Assembly: GCA_022709545.1 (NCBI GenBank)
Contig: JAKLIP010000001.1
Span: 186,001 to 250,000 of the forward strand
Length of the DNA: 64,000 nt
From: Patescibacteria group bacterium
GTDB taxonomy: Bacteria; Patescibacteriota; Minisyncoccia; Moranbacterales; GWC2-37-73
Direction of reading: 5' to 3'
A program made the translations under genes and the position numbers. Shown here piece after piece: positions 33,618 through 40,001 of the stretch. Positions within the stretch are counted from its first letter, which is position 1. Each line of letters starts with the position of its first letter. Below the pieces are notes generated by a model. That model made no database searches, was not told the origin of the DNA, and saw nothing but the letters and a program-made list of their open reading frames with translations.

Positions 33618-33650
33618 AAAAAAGACTGCATGTTTTGTGCAGTCTTTTTT
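33618..33650. terminator. Bidirectional intrinsic terminator
   Basis: AAAAAAGACTGCA (33618-33630) pairs perfectly with TGCAGTCTTTTTT (33638-33650). It separates the secDF operon from the convergent transporter gene. Confidence 0.9.
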
Positions 33651-34516
33651 TATCCGAATAATTTTATTAAAACTAAACCTATAACAACTAAAATAGCCCC
33701 ACTGAGTCTATCTTTAAATTCGCTCTCTTCTTTGAATATTTGTTTTCCCCAAAAAACAGAAAAAAGTGCGCTAGTTCTTTTTATTGAAATTACATAAGGT
33801 ACAATTGCAAGTTCAAAAGCAGCAAATTGGAAGCCAACTTCACTTGTCATGAAAACAGATAAGGCAGCTAGCCCTTTAAAATTTTTCTTAATTGATGTAA
33901 AAAAATCTTTTTTAATTAAAGCAAAAGGTAAAAAACAGGCAAAGATAAAAAAATTAACAACTAGAATAAAAAAGAATGGAGAAGAATTTATTGTGCCAAC
34001 GGAATCATAGTTAGCAGAAATGCTCCATAAAAAAGCCACTATTAGGGCTGATTTAACTCCCTTACTTCTCCAAATAGCTTTTATCGGTTCTATCCAACCA
34101 AGCTTTTTTTCTTTTATTTTCATTTGATAAATTCCGCCCATACTAAAAAGAATTCCAACTGTTCCTAAAATTGTAGGGAATTGGTTGTTAATTAGAGGGG
34201 AAGTTATGAGAAGAAAAACAGGACTTAAGACAAGAATTGGTGATACTAAAGACAATTCACCTTCCTTTAGAGCTTTCAAGCTGAGAAAAGTTGTGAAAAC
34301 ATTTATTAATCCACTTACAATGACTGCTTTTATAAATGCGGGACCGATATTAGGAATACCCTGAAAGGCAACAATTAAAAAGGCTATGAAAGCAACCAAG
34401 CCTCTAGCCACACAGCCAACTGAAATGACATCCATTGTCTGCATGACTTTTTTACTAGCTACATCAGAAAAAGATTTACTTAATGCTGAACACAGCGATA
34501 ATATAAACCAATACAT
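33650..34516 (-). CDS. EamA/DMT-superfamily transporter
   Basis: Polytopic membrane protein of 288 aa with about ten hydrophobic helices arranged as two EamA repeats. The first repeat starts MYWFILSLCSALSKSFSDV; the second starts near residue 150 (ALIVAFLWSISANYDSVG). Members move metabolites or amino acids, but the substrate cannot be inferred. It lies 6 bases downstream of a hypothetical gene on the same strand (34523-35671), which suggests cotranscription. Confidence 0.85.
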   Translation of the reverse strand: MYWFILSLCSALSKSFSDVASKKVMQTMDVISVGCVARGLVAFIAFLIVAFQGIPNIGPAFIKAVIVSGLINVFTTFLSLKALKEGELSLVSPILVLSPVFLLITSPLINNQFPTILGTVGILFSMGGIYQMKIKEKKLGWIEPIKAIWRSKGVKSALIVAFLWSISANYDSVGTINSSPFFFILVVNFFIFACFLPFALIKKDFFTSIKKNFKGLAALSVFMTSEVGFQFAAFELAIVPYVISIKRTSALFSVFWGKQIFKEESEFKDRLSGAILVVIGLVLIKLFG

Positions 34517-34522
34517 CTTATT

Positions 34523-35671
34523 TTATATAGGAGATAAAATTCCTTTTTCTTGCTGTCTTTTTGTCAGAACTATTTCAGGATTACCCTCAGTATTTATACG
34601 TGAAAAAAATAAATGCTTATCCACTAAGTCATCCAAGATTGTGTTTATTTTTTCTTCTGTTAATTTATCTTCATTGCCTAAATCAATTTTTCCACGTTTT
34701 CCAGCCTGTCGTATGGCTCTTTCTGCATAAATTTTATATACAGCTACTCTTCTTAAATATTTAGCATCAACGCCCATAACTTCACCTTGGCGTTCATCTA
34801 TGATGTTAGGTTCTATCAATAATATACAATCTTTGTCGTGGTACAACATCTGATTTAATCCATATAGGAAATCTTCATTTCCGCCAATAGGCTCTTGTTT
34901 TCCGTTTATTTCTAATTTTCCAGCAAGGGCGTTATCTGTGATACCTGAAAATTTTACGTTTTTTCCCGCTAAAGAAAGGGTATTATTGTGTAAAACACGG
35001 CTCAAATTATTTATATCTATATCATCTTCTCCCTTAATTATTTTATTTATTAATTCTATGTCGTGTACACCCTTAACAGCAGACCCCATTATGGCTAGTT
35101 TTTCTGGACGAGATGCCTCAAAAAAATCTTTAGTTTTTTTCATAGCTAAAATTTGTATCAGCAACTCCTTGGGTTTATTTGCTAAATCAGAACTTGCAAA
35201 AATAAAATCAGAAAAATCTTCATCCTTGATGGGTTTGTTAAGCATATCAGCATAACTAAAATCGCCTTTAGCTGAACTTCTATCTCCAACTATTTTTTTG
35301 CCCAGATCCGACCTTCTTTTTGCTTTGGATTGCTCAGTGTACAAAATATTTAATCCGGAAAAATCAAGTTCTTTTTTGCCTGCCTCCTCCAAGTCAGAAT
35401 TCGTTATAATTGTTGTTTGAGGAGCTTTTTCTGCTAATTTATTAGAAATAAGTTGATTAAAATTGCTTATTGATGAGACTTGTTTTCGAAATTGTTCTAA
35501 AGATTTTTCGTCAAATTTTCCAATTTTAAATACCCGGAAACAGAGCGCTGAATTTGATAAATCCGGTTCATTTTCAAAAAGTTTTTGTTCCATGATATCC
35601 CGCTTGTCTTTTGGCGGTTTCAATGCACTTTCTTCTTTAAAGGGGGCTTGAGATTCAAACATTTTTTCCAT
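34523..35671 (-). CDS. Hypothetical protein, 382 aa
   Basis: I do not recognise this protein. It is soluble, acidic at the N-terminus, and lacks a signal peptide or membrane segment. Recurrent features are SSALC-like hydrophobic strands, AIMGSAVKGVHDIELI near residue 191, a Gly/Asn-rich segment near 260-270, LLIEPNIIDE near 280, and a helical C-terminus. It shares a transcription unit with the downstream EamA transporter. The divergently arranged tyrS begins about 100 bases away. Confidence 0.7.
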   Translation of the reverse strand: MEKMFESQAPFKEESALKPPKDKRDIMEQKLFENEPDLSNSALCFRVFKIGKFDEKSLEQFRKQVSSISNFNQLISNKLAEKAPQTTIITNSDLEEAGKKELDFSGLNILYTEQSKAKRRSDLGKKIVGDRSSAKGDFSYADMLNKPIKDEDFSDFIFASSDLANKPKELLIQILAMKKTKDFFEASRPEKLAIMGSAVKGVHDIELINKIIKGEDDIDINNLSRVLHNNTLSLAGKNVKFSGITDNALAGKLEINGKQEPIGGNEDFLYGLNQMLYHDKDCILLIEPNIIDERQGEVMGVDAKYLRRVAVYKIYAERAIRQAGKRGKIDLGNEDKLTEEKINTILDDLVDKHLFFSRINTEGNPEIVLTKRQQEKGILSPI

Positions 35672-35771: not shown

Positions 35772-36968
35772 ATGGATAAAAATATTGAAAAACAAATAGA
35801 TGAGATTTTGACGCGGGGAGTTGAAAATATTTATCCCAGCAAAGAAGCACTCAAAGAGGTCTTGATGTCTGGGAAAAAGATAAAACTTTATTGCGGTTAT
35901 GATCCTACAGCCAAATCTCTTCATATTGGAAATGCAATTTCCATAAACAAGCTTGGCCAATTTCAAAAATTGGGACACGAAGTCATTTTTCTTGTGGGTG
36001 ATTTTACGGGAATGATAGGCGATCCAACTGATAAAAGTGCAGTGCGAAAAAAATTAACCAGAGAAGAAGCACTAAAAAATAGCGAAAACTACAAAAAACA
36101 AGCTTCAGGATATTTAAAATTTGATGGAGAAAATCCAGTTAAAATTCTATATAATAGTGAATGGAATGATAAACTCACATTTAAAGACTTAATAGAAATA
36201 TCTTCGAATTTTACCGCTCAGCAAATGTTTCAAAGAGACATGTTTCAGGAAAGGATAAAAAACGAGAAGCCTATATACCTACATGAATTTTTGTATCCAT
36301 TGGCTCAAGCTTACGACAGTATTGAGTTGAATGTAGACCTAGAAATTGGCGGTAATGACCAAATGTTTAACATGATGTGCGGCAGGGATTTAATGAAAGC
36401 CGTGAAAAATAAGGAAAAATTCGTTTTAACAATGAAACTTTTGGCTGATGAGACAGGTAAAAAGATGGGTAAAACCGAAGGCAATGTAGTAAATTTAGAC
36501 GAAACTGCTGAAAATATGTTCGGACAAGTAATGGCTTGGTCAGATGGACTTATAATTCCGGGGTTTGAACTTTGCACAAACATTCCAGCAGAAGAATTAA
36601 AAGAAATTGATACGAAAAAAAATCCACGCGATGCTAAGCTGAAATTAGCCTATGAAATAACTAAAATTAATTATGGTGAAAAAAAAGCCAAAGCAGCACA
36701 GGATTATTTTATAAATACTTTTTCAAAAAAGGAAATTCCAAGTGATATTGCGGAATTTAAGATAAATGAAGAATCAAAAAAATTGGCAGAAATTTTGGTT
36801 GAATCAGGCAATGCGAAAAGTCTGAGCGATGCTCGCCGAAAAATTGAACAAGGCGGTGTTTCTATTGATGATGAAAAAATAACAGACATTCAGACTATAA
36901 TTACGCAAAAAGAAAATAAAAAAGTTTTAAAAATAGGAAAATTGGGATTTATAAAAATAATATTCTAA
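35772..36968 (+). CDS. tyrS: Tyrosine--tRNA ligase
   Basis: Class I synthetase that charges tRNA-Tyr. The HIGH-type motif is LHIGNAI in YDPTAKSLHIGN (about residues 46-54), the KMSKS-type motif is KKMGKTEGN (about 230-238), and the C-terminal S4 RNA-binding domain (LSDARRKIEQGGVSI) is present. The 398-aa length is normal. It has its own promoter and is followed 25 bases later by the PheRS pair, forming a short synthetase cluster. Confidence 0.95.
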   Translation: MDKNIEKQIDEILTRGVENIYPSKEALKEVLMSGKKIKLYCGYDPTAKSLHIGNAISINKLGQFQKLGHEVIFLVGDFTGMIGDPTDKSAVRKKLTREEALKNSENYKKQASGYLKFDGENPVKILYNSEWNDKLTFKDLIEISSNFTAQQMFQRDMFQERIKNEKPIYLHEFLYPLAQAYDSIELNVDLEIGGNDQMFNMMCGRDLMKAVKNKEKFVLTMKLLADETGKKMGKTEGNVVNLDETAENMFGQVMAWSDGLIIPGFELCTNIPAEELKEIDTKKNPRDAKLKLAYEITKINYGEKKAKAAQDYFINTFSKKEIPSDIAEFKINEESKKLAEILVESGNAKSLSDARRKIEQGGVSIDDEKITDIQTIITQKENKKVLKIGKLGFIKIIF

Positions 36969-36993: not shown

Positions 36994-37422
36994 ATGGAAT
37001 TTTTATATAATTGGCTCAAAAAATTATTCAATACAGGAAAATCAGCTGAAGAAGCTTTAAAAAGTCATATAACGCGCTCTTTCGAAAATATTGTAGTGGG
37101 GAAAATTTTGGAAATAAATAAGCATCCTAACGCGGACAGGTTAAGATTGGTGAGGGTTGATATAGGCAGCAAGAAATTAGAGGTTGTCTGCGGGGCGCCA
37201 AATATTGAAACAGGACAAAAAGTGCCAGTTGCACTTTTGGGTGCAAAATTGCCAAATGGAATTGAAATAAAAGAAGCTGAAATCCGTGGTGTAAAATCTT
37301 GTGGAATGCTTTGTGCCAAGGACGAACTGGGTTTAGGCGATGATCATACGGGAATTATGATTTTAGATGAAAATGCCGAAATTGGAATGGAATTTGCAAA
37401 ATATCCTAACTTGAATAAATAA
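36994..37422 (+). CDS. Stand-alone PheT-like N-terminal tRNA-binding domain
   Basis: This 142-aa protein matches only the N-terminal part of the PheRS beta subunit. It has a short FLYNWLKKLF start, then the OB-fold EMAP/tRNA-bind domain: FENIVVGKILEINKHPNADR, VVCGAPNIETGQKVPVAL, RGVKSCGMLCAKDELGLGDDHTGIM. The editing (B3/B4), B5, B6/B7 and B8 domains of PheT are missing. The stop is clean and the next gene follows 20 bases later, so it is not an obvious recent frameshift. It probably works in trans with the adjacent PheRS-like enzyme, perhaps to grip tRNA. This role is inference. Confidence 0.85.
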   Translation: MEFLYNWLKKLFNTGKSAEEALKSHITRSFENIVVGKILEINKHPNADRLRLVRVDIGSKKLEVVCGAPNIETGQKVPVALLGAKLPNGIEIKEAEIRGVKSCGMLCAKDELGLGDDHTGIMILDENAEIGMEFAKYPNLNK

Positions 37423-37442
37423 ATTCACAATAAAATAAGCAT

Positions 37443-38585
37443 ATGCAAAAAATTGTCATTGAGAACAAAGAAGAAAAAATTTTAATAGAGGAACTAAACA
37501 AAAGAAGCGATATAAAGGCAGAGCGCATAAAAAAACTTTTAGCATTGCCGGATCTTACCAAAAAAGAAAACTCGCCAGTTAAAATTTTAGTTGATGCTAT
37601 ATTGGAATTACCAAGATTTAAAGATTTTTATGTGGTTGATTTTCCGAAAATTGTTACAGTTGAAGAAAACTTCGATGTTTTAAACACTCCCCAGGATCAT
37701 CCTTCCAGAAGGGAATCGGATACATATTATTTGGATAAAAAAAATATTCTTCGCACTCAGACTACAACCATGTGGCCCTATTGTTTACGCGACGAAAGAA
37801 TTATTGAAATTTTAGAAAAAGAAGGAAAAATTGGAATTATGGGACCGGGTATCGTTTTCAGAAAAGATGAAATTGACCGAAGTCATTATCCAGCATTTAA
37901 TCAGATAGATGGTCTTTATATTTGTAAAAAATCGGACCATGAAATAACCCGTAAAGAGCTAGAGGATATTCAAGCTGATGCAGCCAAAGCGGTCTTTGGC
38001 GAAGATTGTGAATACCGTTTTTTAGATGATACTTTTCCTTTTACCGATCCTTCAACTCAGATTGAAGTTAAATTCGGCGATAAATGGATGGAATTGTCCG
38101 GCTCTGGATTGGTGCACAAAGAATGTTTGAAAAATTTCGGATTGGATCCGGAAATTTATAACGGTTGGGCGTTTGGTTTTGGAATAGATAGATGGGCAAT
38201 GGTAAAAATGAATATACAGGACATCAGAGTGTTGTGGTCAGATGATCCCAGAATCACTAGTCAATTCAAGGATATAAACAGCAAGTTTAAAGAAGTCAGT
38301 AAGTTTCCGGAAACAGTAAGAGATATTTCTTTCATCATTGACAAGAATATTAATCTTAATAATTATTACGAAATTGTCCGCGATTTTGCTGATGATTTGA
38401 TTGAAGAAGTAAAACTTTTGGATGAATATGAAAATGAAGAAAAATTCGGCAAGGACAAGAAGAGCTATACTTTCCGCATCACATATCGCTCCATGGAAAG
38501 AACACTCACTAATGAAGAAATAAATAAAATTCAGGAAGAAATCCGCAAGAAAACCGAACAGGATCTCAAAGCCGTACTGCGATAA
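37443..38585 (+). CDS. pheS: Phenylalanine--tRNA ligase, monomeric mitochondrial-type architecture
   Basis: Class II synthetase for tRNA-Phe. The catalytic core (about residues 70-265) includes HPSRRESDTYYL, motif 2 region VFRKDEIDRSHYPAFNQID (139-157) and motif 3 GWAFGFGIDRWAM (241-253). Unlike normal bacterial PheS, the C-terminus (about 287-380) is a ferredoxin-like anticodon-binding domain (FPETVRDISF, then FRITYRSMERTLTNEE), which is usually the last domain of PheT. This core-plus-FDX-ACB order is that of mitochondrial PheRS. It suggests an alpha-only enzyme without the editing domain. A PheT tRNA-binding fragment precedes it. Confidence 0.9.
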   Translation: MQKIVIENKEEKILIEELNKRSDIKAERIKKLLALPDLTKKENSPVKILVDAILELPRFKDFYVVDFPKIVTVEENFDVLNTPQDHPSRRESDTYYLDKKNILRTQTTTMWPYCLRDERIIEILEKEGKIGIMGPGIVFRKDEIDRSHYPAFNQIDGLYICKKSDHEITRKELEDIQADAAKAVFGEDCEYRFLDDTFPFTDPSTQIEVKFGDKWMELSGSGLVHKECLKNFGLDPEIYNGWAFGFGIDRWAMVKMNIQDIRVLWSDDPRITSQFKDINSKFKEVSKFPETVRDISFIIDKNINLNNYYEIVRDFADDLIEEVKLLDEYENEEKFGKDKKSYTFRITYRSMERTLTNEEINKIQEEIRKKTEQDLKAVLR

Positions 38586-38945: not shown

Positions 38946-40001
38946 ATGGAAAAATCACTTAAACAAGCCGGAAAATACACAGCAGACGAAAATCTGTTTT
39001 TTTCTGATTCCTTAAGAGAGCTAATTTTTGACCTTCCCGAAAGATCTCAAGAGATTATTTTGAATAGGTATGGGGTATTTTTACCTAATAAAATGACTCT
39101 TGAAGAAATTGGCAAGAAACACCGCATCACCCGCGAACGTGTACGTCAGATTATACGTGAAGTTTTAAAAAAAATAAGAGACAAGAAAGAACACCCTGTT
39201 TTTATACAAATTCAGGAAAAAATAACCTTGGCTTTGCAATCAAATAGTGGTATAATGGAAGAAAGTCACATTATATCTGTCTTAGGAAAAGGCAACACAA
39301 ATGAAGAAGCTGCTGCACGTTTTTTCTTGGAATGTTTAGAAGATGTTTTAGGTAATGAAGTTAAAAATGAGCTTAAATTCTCTTATGCTCTTAAAGATTT
39401 TAAATTTGATCACTGGAAAAATGTAAAAAATGCAGCTATAGAAACCTTAAAGAATCATAAAAAGCCCTTGCCATTTGATATATTATTTGAACATATAAAT
39501 AAAACTAAAAATTTAGACATACCAAAAGAAACGTTAAAGCATTTTTTGCAAGTTTCTGGTGAATTAAGTAAAAATGCTTTTGATAAATGGGGTATTGTAG
39601 ATTGGAAAGAAATTTCTCCGAAAGGAACACGTGAAAAAGCTTATCTTGTCATAAAAGAGTTCGGAAAACCGCTTCATTTTAGAGAAATTGCCAAGAAAAT
39701 AGATCAAAATCGTTTAAACAAGAAAAAAACCCATCCACAGACAGTGCATAATGAACTTATAAAAGACAGTAATTTTGTTCTAGTTGGTAGAGGAATTTAT
39801 GCATTAGTTGAATGGGGGTACAAAAGAGGCACAGTCAAGGATGTTATTGAAGAAATTATAAAAAATAGCGCAAAACCGCTAAAAAAGGAAGAAATTATTG
39901 AAAAAGTTCTTGCTGTAAGGCAGGTTAAAGAATCAACTATAGTTATTAATTTGAATAATTATTTCTCTAAATCAAAAGAGGGTACTTACTCAATTAAATG
40001 A
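38946..40001 (+). CDS. Sigma-70 region 4-like / HARE-HTH DNA-binding protein
   Basis: Predicted transcription-associated protein of 351 aa. Residues about 20-80 match sigma factor region 4: LPERSQEIILNRYG, TLEEIGKKHRITRERVRQI. Regions 2 and 3 are absent, so it is not a normal sigma factor. Residues about 225-290 resemble a HARE-HTH winged helix (REKAYLVIKEFGKPLHFREI, then GRGIYALVEWG), as in the RNA polymerase delta subunit. A further helix-turn-helix-like segment ends the protein. It may modulate RNA polymerase or chromosome structure. It has its own strong promoter and a long leader, and is followed by the TraG-like pair. Confidence 0.82.
   Translation: MEKSLKQAGKYTADENLFFSDSLRELIFDLPERSQEIILNRYGVFLPNKMTLEEIGKKHRITRERVRQIIREVLKKIRDKKEHPVFIQIQEKITLALQSNSGIMEESHIISVLGKGNTNEEAAARFFLECLEDVLGNEVKNELKFSYALKDFKFDHWKNVKNAAIETLKNHKKPLPFDILFEHINKTKNLDIPKETLKHFLQVSGELSKNAFDKWGIVDWKEISPKGTREKAYLVIKEFGKPLHFREIAKKIDQNRLNKKKTHPQTVHNELIKDSNFVLVGRGIYALVEWGYKRGTVKDVIEEIIKNSAKPLKKEEIIEKVLAVRQVKESTIVINLNNYFSKSKEGTYSIK

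Follow-up and report, generated by a model that had tools for sequence, protein, structure and literature searches.

We analysed a 64,000-nucleotide stretch of DNA (the window) from an uncultured, small bacterium of the Patescibacteria (candidate phyla radiation, CPR) and found in it a 380-aa protein, here called PheRSm, which is most probably the sole PheRS of its cell: a single-chain, mitochondrial-like and editing-free enzyme of a Patescibacteria subfamily that would have replaced pheS-pheT in situ, with a 142-aa OB protein as an optional helper. We give this reading a probability of nearly nine in ten. The coordinates of the genes and domains are collected in Table 1.

Table 1. Predicted features of the PheRS locus and its conserved neighbours in the window
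Feature	Coordinates	Strand	Description
tyrS	35772..36968	+	Conserved upstream gene marking the pheS-pheT slot; no component of the enzyme
Stand-alone PheT N-terminal remnant (putative)	36994..37422	+	142 aa; OB-fold B2 and B1 vestige; accessory tRNA-binding (predicted)
OB-fold B2 of the 142-aa protein	37090-37389	+	PF01588 (tRNA_bind, EMAPII-like OB fold); sole domain
Single-chain PheRS (PheRSm)	37443..38585	+	380 aa; class II PheRS core and C-terminal FDX-ACB (B8)
Catalytic core of PheRSm	37557..38267	+	PF01409, residues 39-275, E 3e-55
FDX-ACB / B8 anticodon-binding domain of PheRSm	38298..38582	+	PF03147, residues 286-380, E 4e-26
Sigma70_r4/HARE-HTH protein	38946..40001	+	Conserved downstream gene marking the slot; no component of the enzyme

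A preliminary description of this DNA had proposed that a PheS core and an FDX-ACB domain are joined here in one chain, the layout of mitochondrial PheRS, and both domains (PF01409 and PF03147) were indeed found in the 380-aa ORF. In the NCBIfam profile match the FDX-ACB part corresponded to PheT positions 691-798. The top NCBIfam model for the whole protein was SrmL with 261.9 bits, below its cut-off of 300; pheS_mito gave 254.8 bits (cut-off 258.35) and pheS 179.5 (cut-off 237.45). In terms of strict membership, PheRSm is neither TIGR00469 (pheS_mito) nor SrmL, both cut-offs being missed. Among the solved structures in the PDB, human mitochondrial PheRS was its best relative at E 2e-54, whereas the top bacterial PheS chain reached 9e-40; a profile of 27 relatives improved the human match to E 4e-80. 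The two segments described earlier as resembling the human mitochondrial enzyme do align with it, HYPAFNQ with HYPIFHQ and RITYRSMERTL with RITYRHMERTL. The residues of motif 2 (RKDEID..H) and motif 3 (AFGFGIDR) were conserved, the motif residues being invariant over 27 members, and PheRSm retained the Phe-pocket segment FPFT, the WAFG alanine and the arginines of motifs 2 and 3. Note that the His of FHQ, nearly invariant elsewhere, is Asn (FNQ) in the window sequence and also in L044.

AlphaFold2, run on 27 natural sequences, modelled PheRSm with a pLDDT of 92.5 and a pTM of 0.88. Foldseek aligned the model over the whole chain with human mitochondrial PheRS 3cmq (TM 0.77, 387 columns, E 6e-34); the TM was lower (0.58) with 3tup, the tRNA-bound open form of the human enzyme, and canonical alpha chains matched the core only, with TM about 0.55 or less. 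The tRNA-Phe of the window genome presented G1-C72, A73 and GAA, the small identity set used by human mt-PheRS (PMC9976931). It was also 94% identical over 66 bases to the tRNA-Phe of G059, a genome with canonical PheRS; therefore no special tRNA was seen, and a co-evolution of the tRNA with PheRSm was dropped as a candidate.

The genome of the window has 1.02 Mb in 17 contigs and is 98% complete, with 9.6% estimated contamination. Genome-wide, the full PheT model recovered just two PheT pieces, the 380-aa and 142-aa ORFs, and no full pheT, in agreement with the preliminary description. A comparable second PheS was likewise absent from the whole genome, the next match reaching 20.6 bits over 52 positions of a 491-aa frame. 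The editing domain had also been proposed to be missing: B3/B4 gave no match in the genome at E up to 1, and the control search was positive in 14/14 reference genomes. Having no PheT, the cell would therefore have no B3/B4 post-transfer editing, and we infer that PheRS editing is lacking in vivo and that Tyr may be mischarged. It is hardly credible that a normal pheT was missed in an assembly gap or that the single-chain gene is contamination. The number of contigs and the estimated contamination would allow it, but 28 further genomes presented the same exclusion, a 378-kb contig carries the PheRSm gene within a conserved gene order, and the pheS-pheT slot itself is filled by the new genes. 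A recent contaminant, considered in the preliminary description, is equally at odds with the syntenic position and with orthologs 63-88% identical in other Patescibacteria, those named belonging to Moranbacteria, Staskawiczbacteria and Wolfebacteria.

The gene order around the locus was compared with that of two canonical genomes of the same family, G281 and G340, which share the arrangement secD, secF, a small gene, tyrS, pheS, pheT and homologs of the window genes starting at 38946, 40047 and 41383. In the window, tyrS is followed by the OB gene, PheRSm and the same three downstream genes. Because pheS-pheT lies between identical neighbours in sister genera, the new genes have taken its place there. 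The protein with Sigma70 region 4 and HARE-HTH downstream of the PheRS slot is also present in canonical G281 and G340. Between the secF/small gene pair and tyrS, the window carries at 33650-35671 two minus-strand genes (a 288 aa membrane protein and a 382 aa protein) that were not found in G281 (L188:5651-7240), which suggests that they were inserted locally, next to the exchanged locus.

The distribution of both enzyme types was determined in draft genomes, 286 from the phylum Patescibacteria and 73 from the order of the window genome. Full PheT scored above its cut-off in 219/286 genomes of the phylum sample and the single-chain type was present in 25/286, a count made up of 24 matches of at least 150 bits that extend to the C-terminus of pheS_mito, together with G089, which is cut by a contig end. 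Not one match in the 286 genomes reached the pheS_mito cut-off of 258.35. The two types excluded each other: full PheT was found in 0/25 single-chain genomes and in 219/261 of the others (p 3e-18). The same held within the order, where 5/73 genomes had the single-chain type, with full PheT in 0/5 of these and 65/68 of the rest (p 4e-6). Since the same enzyme recurs in 25/286 and 5/73 genomes, none of them with full PheT, the absence is no assembly accident; three of the single-chain genomes are nearly closed and 100% complete (G132 with 2 contigs, G214 with 3 and G025 with 6). The window genome is alone in its family of 12 genomes in having the single-chain type. Both types occurred together within families f1, f2, f9, f35, f60, f74, f133 and f135, which requires transfer or repeated replacement.

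The survey also revealed unusual forms of PheT itself. Many Patescibacteria PheT begin around position 157-163 of the model, i.e., without the B1-B2 front, as in G061, G103, G174, G205, G273, G022, G007, G069, G079, G005, G258, G093 and G013 of the phylum sample, none of which had a stand-alone OB copy, and in G306, G310, G313, G320, G331, G337, G344, G351 and G358 of the order. PheRS beta chains of many CPR have been described as having no B2 (PMC5370408). Five PheT matches (G101:C18, G152:C33, G162:C66, G335:C25 and G357:C17) were located inside open frames of ~960-1050 aa, longer than PheT, which may be fusions or insertions. In family f77 (G092, G147, G166, G259 and G267) the PheT matches contained one or two in-frame TAA/TAG, reflecting either an overrun of the end of the alignment or something odder.

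Trees were built from the core plus FDX-ACB, with canonical rows composed of PheS and the PheT C-terminus; the family survey covered Patescibacteria, phages and plasmids, and mitochondria were represented by one human sequence joined from two pieces in PDB alignments. The mitochondrial affinity proposed earlier held in this phylogeny: a 100/100 branch separated the single-chain enzymes of Patescibacteria, huge phages and human mitochondria, the window gene among them, from canonical PheRS. The single-chain group was divided into a Patescibacteria subclade (100/97-98) and one of huge phages with human mitochondria (100/100); the window PheRSm fell outside the latter, its own clade being the sister. 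PheRSm therefore belongs to the clade of single-chain PheRS (PheRS-M, broadly defined) and shares ancestry with mitochondrial PheRS; within that clade it is classed in a distinct Patescibacteria subfamily, the sister of the phage and mitochondrial clade. A local and independent fusion of a Patescibacteria PheS with a PheT C-terminus, the mitochondrial likeness being convergence, would fit the domain arithmetic, which is the same, and the PheT N-terminal remnant that adjoins PheRSm. It is nevertheless very improbable, given that a 100/100 branch set the single-chain group off from every canonical PheRS, that of G281 from the same family included, and that a clade of Patescibacteria single-chain and Patescibacteria canonical rows was rejected (AU p 7.6e-8). 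We give just as little credence to the transfer of a eukaryotic mitochondrial gene into Patescibacteria: it would explain the mitochondrial layout and the best PDB match, but a clade of human mitochondrial and Patescibacteria enzymes without phages was rejected (p 0.0055, with one mitochondrial sequence) and the Patescibacteria enzymes form a deep clade of high diversity. In the best trees the human mitochondrial sequence was positioned among the phage rows, but a phage-only clade was not rejected (AU p 0.42 and 0.19 in two trees).

The top rank of SrmL among the NCBIfam models brings in another reading, namely that the protein is a relative of SrmL ("PheS-related mystery ligase"), a ligase whose function is other than that of a PheRS. 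SrmL (NF051887) resembles PheRSm in having a PheS core and a C-terminal FDX-ACB-like domain in one chain, and in one tree the SrmL rows fell on the Patescibacteria side (96/94), with a very long branch (2.38). It is, however, a separate curated family whose true members, L092 (NZ_CP142605.1), L093 (NZ_CP066311.1) and L094 (LR745206.1), scored 423-524 bits, and the window protein is below the cut-off. The active-site and FDX-ACB residues are conserved in PheRSm, and since the genome contains no other PheRS, some protein must charge tRNA-Phe, so we regard an SrmL-type ligase as a most unlikely identity for it. The true SrmL members corresponded to two plasmid genes annotated as "hypothetical protein" and, in a 635-kb phage, to a gene without annotation; no literature on SrmL was found in the open-licence papers searched.

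When IMG/VR was scanned with the Patescibacteria profile, 24 single-chain enzymes were found, their contigs measuring 5-536 kb; a second scan found 31, seven of them on contigs absent from the first. Viral contigs with single-chain PheRS were L065-L088, L100-L108 and L121. Terminase matches at E up to 0.001 were obtained in 7/19 records checked, four of them above the cut-off; the terminase-bearing contigs included those of L065, L068 and L082 (533, 430 and 323 kb). The phage enzymes share domain layout and clade with the window protein, to which they are 34-41% identical, and differ from it in their shorter N-terminus and in being virus-borne. They are closer to mitochondria than the Patescibacteria enzymes are: L065 is 52% identical to human mitochondrial PheRS, and all five phage enzymes tested (L065, L068, L069, L073 and L082) scored above the pheS_mito (TIGR00469) cut-off, with 267-386 bits, and are therefore more mitochondrial by the curated model. 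The huge-phage enzymes are the nearest relatives of human mitochondrial PheRS found here. The position of the human enzyme in or beside the phage clade suggests, without proof, that it came from a phage source. A wider scenario, which we put forward tentatively and with more doubt than confidence, is that single-chain PheRS originated or diversified among the genes of huge phages and mobile elements and displaced the cell's own (alpha-beta)2 enzyme on two or more occasions, in the mitochondrial ancestor or in early eukaryotes, and more than once in Patescibacteria. Mitochondrial RNA polymerase is of phage descent, and if this scenario were true, mitochondrial PheRS would be so too.

The 142-aa protein had been described as a separate B1/B2-like domain and the only other PheT piece; the whole-genome search agreed with this, except that the protein is mainly B2, with only a trace of B1. 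Its best NCBIfam match was PheT (positions 38-157, 163 bits). YtpR (NF045760) gave 134.8 bits, over the cut-off of 100 but along profile positions 68-185 of 185 only, and TapR (NF045867) 71.4, below the cut-off of 120. As a stand-alone EMAPII-like OB fold (PF01588) it resembles YtpR, TapR and PheT B2, but it matches PheT itself best, is without the N-terminal third of YtpR, and has PheRSm rather than TyrS as genomic partner. The B1 trace is seen at its start, MEFLYNWLKKLF where PheT starts MKYSYNWLKELS, and relatives of the same order have more B1 left, e.g., L049 with MKYNYNWLKNLLG...LTMHPAEIESLEKQ (NYNWLK...LTMHPAEIESLEKQ); the protein may therefore most simply be seen as a kept PheT front end of N-terminal (B1-B2) origin. 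In a B2 tree the OB rows were all apart from the PheT rows (98/95), and the comparison of a local PheT remnant with co-transfer alongside PheRSm favoured neither significantly (AU p 0.135).

The OB gene directly adjoined PheRSm in 15/25 single-chain genomes of the phylum sample and in 5/5 of the order; in a 16th of the 25 it was on another contig, with PheRSm at a contig start. No stand-alone OB was present in the 14 canonical genomes examined (0/14; association with PheRSm, p 9e-5). TyrS was rejected as the partner: in L046, which has no tyrS alongside, the OB gene still accompanies PheRSm, and its partner is therefore PheRSm. This association and the grouping of the OB proteins against PheT N-termini (98/95) would fit an obligate two-part enzyme, a heteromeric, reduced alpha/beta-like PheRS composed of the 380-aa chain and an essential OB protein. 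We consider this unlikely, because an OB partner was not detected in 9/25 single-chain genomes, several of them 99-100% complete, the human mitochondrial enzyme functions without one (PMC3275996), and B2 of canonical PheRS is described as dispensable in the title of Roy & Ibba 2006 (cited in PMC5370408). On account of the nine genomes we call the OB protein accessory; it is best regarded as a putative, dispensable PheT N-terminal remnant and not as half of an obligate enzyme.

The analogy with mitochondrial PheRS suggests how PheRSm, probably a monomer, would charge tRNA-Phe. The class II core would activate Phe and transfer it to tRNA-Phe, and the tethered B8 would read the anticodon (G34) following a domain movement, both as in the mitochondrial enzyme. 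With no PheT, Tyr would be excluded by the active-site pocket alone. The OB helper probably raises tRNA affinity in trans.

PheRSm thus shares with mitochondrial PheRS (PheRS-M, FARS2, TIGR00469) the core-B8 arrangement in one chain with no beta subunit or editing domain, the clade as against canonical PheRS, and a full-length fold match. It differs in belonging to a sister subfamily 3.5 bits short of the curated cut-off, in having N-terminal helices of its own (residues 1-40), and in being a bacterial protein, the only PheRS of its cell and often paired with an OB-fold PheT remnant. Canonical (alpha-beta)2 PheRS has a homologous core (PheS) and B8 (PheT C-terminus) and occupies the same slot in sister genera, but it is a heterotetramer encoded by two genes and with B3/B4 editing; in the window the beta domains are gone except for B8 and the B2 remnant. 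A review described the heterotetrameric form of PheRS as conserved throughout the known prokaryotes and eukaryotic cytosols, the monomeric form being mitochondrial (PMC3275996), and we found no report in the open-access literature of single-chain PheRS in Patescibacteria, other bacteria or phages. Against that universal heterotetramer, whole bacterial lineages appear to live with single-chain PheRS alone, lacking the Tyr-editing domain. Three questions thereby become open to testing: what lets cells survive without PheRS editing, by what route an essential enzyme encoded by two genes is exchanged in situ for one encoded by a single gene, and, now that phage enzymes are available as its close relatives, what the origin of mitochondrial PheRS was.
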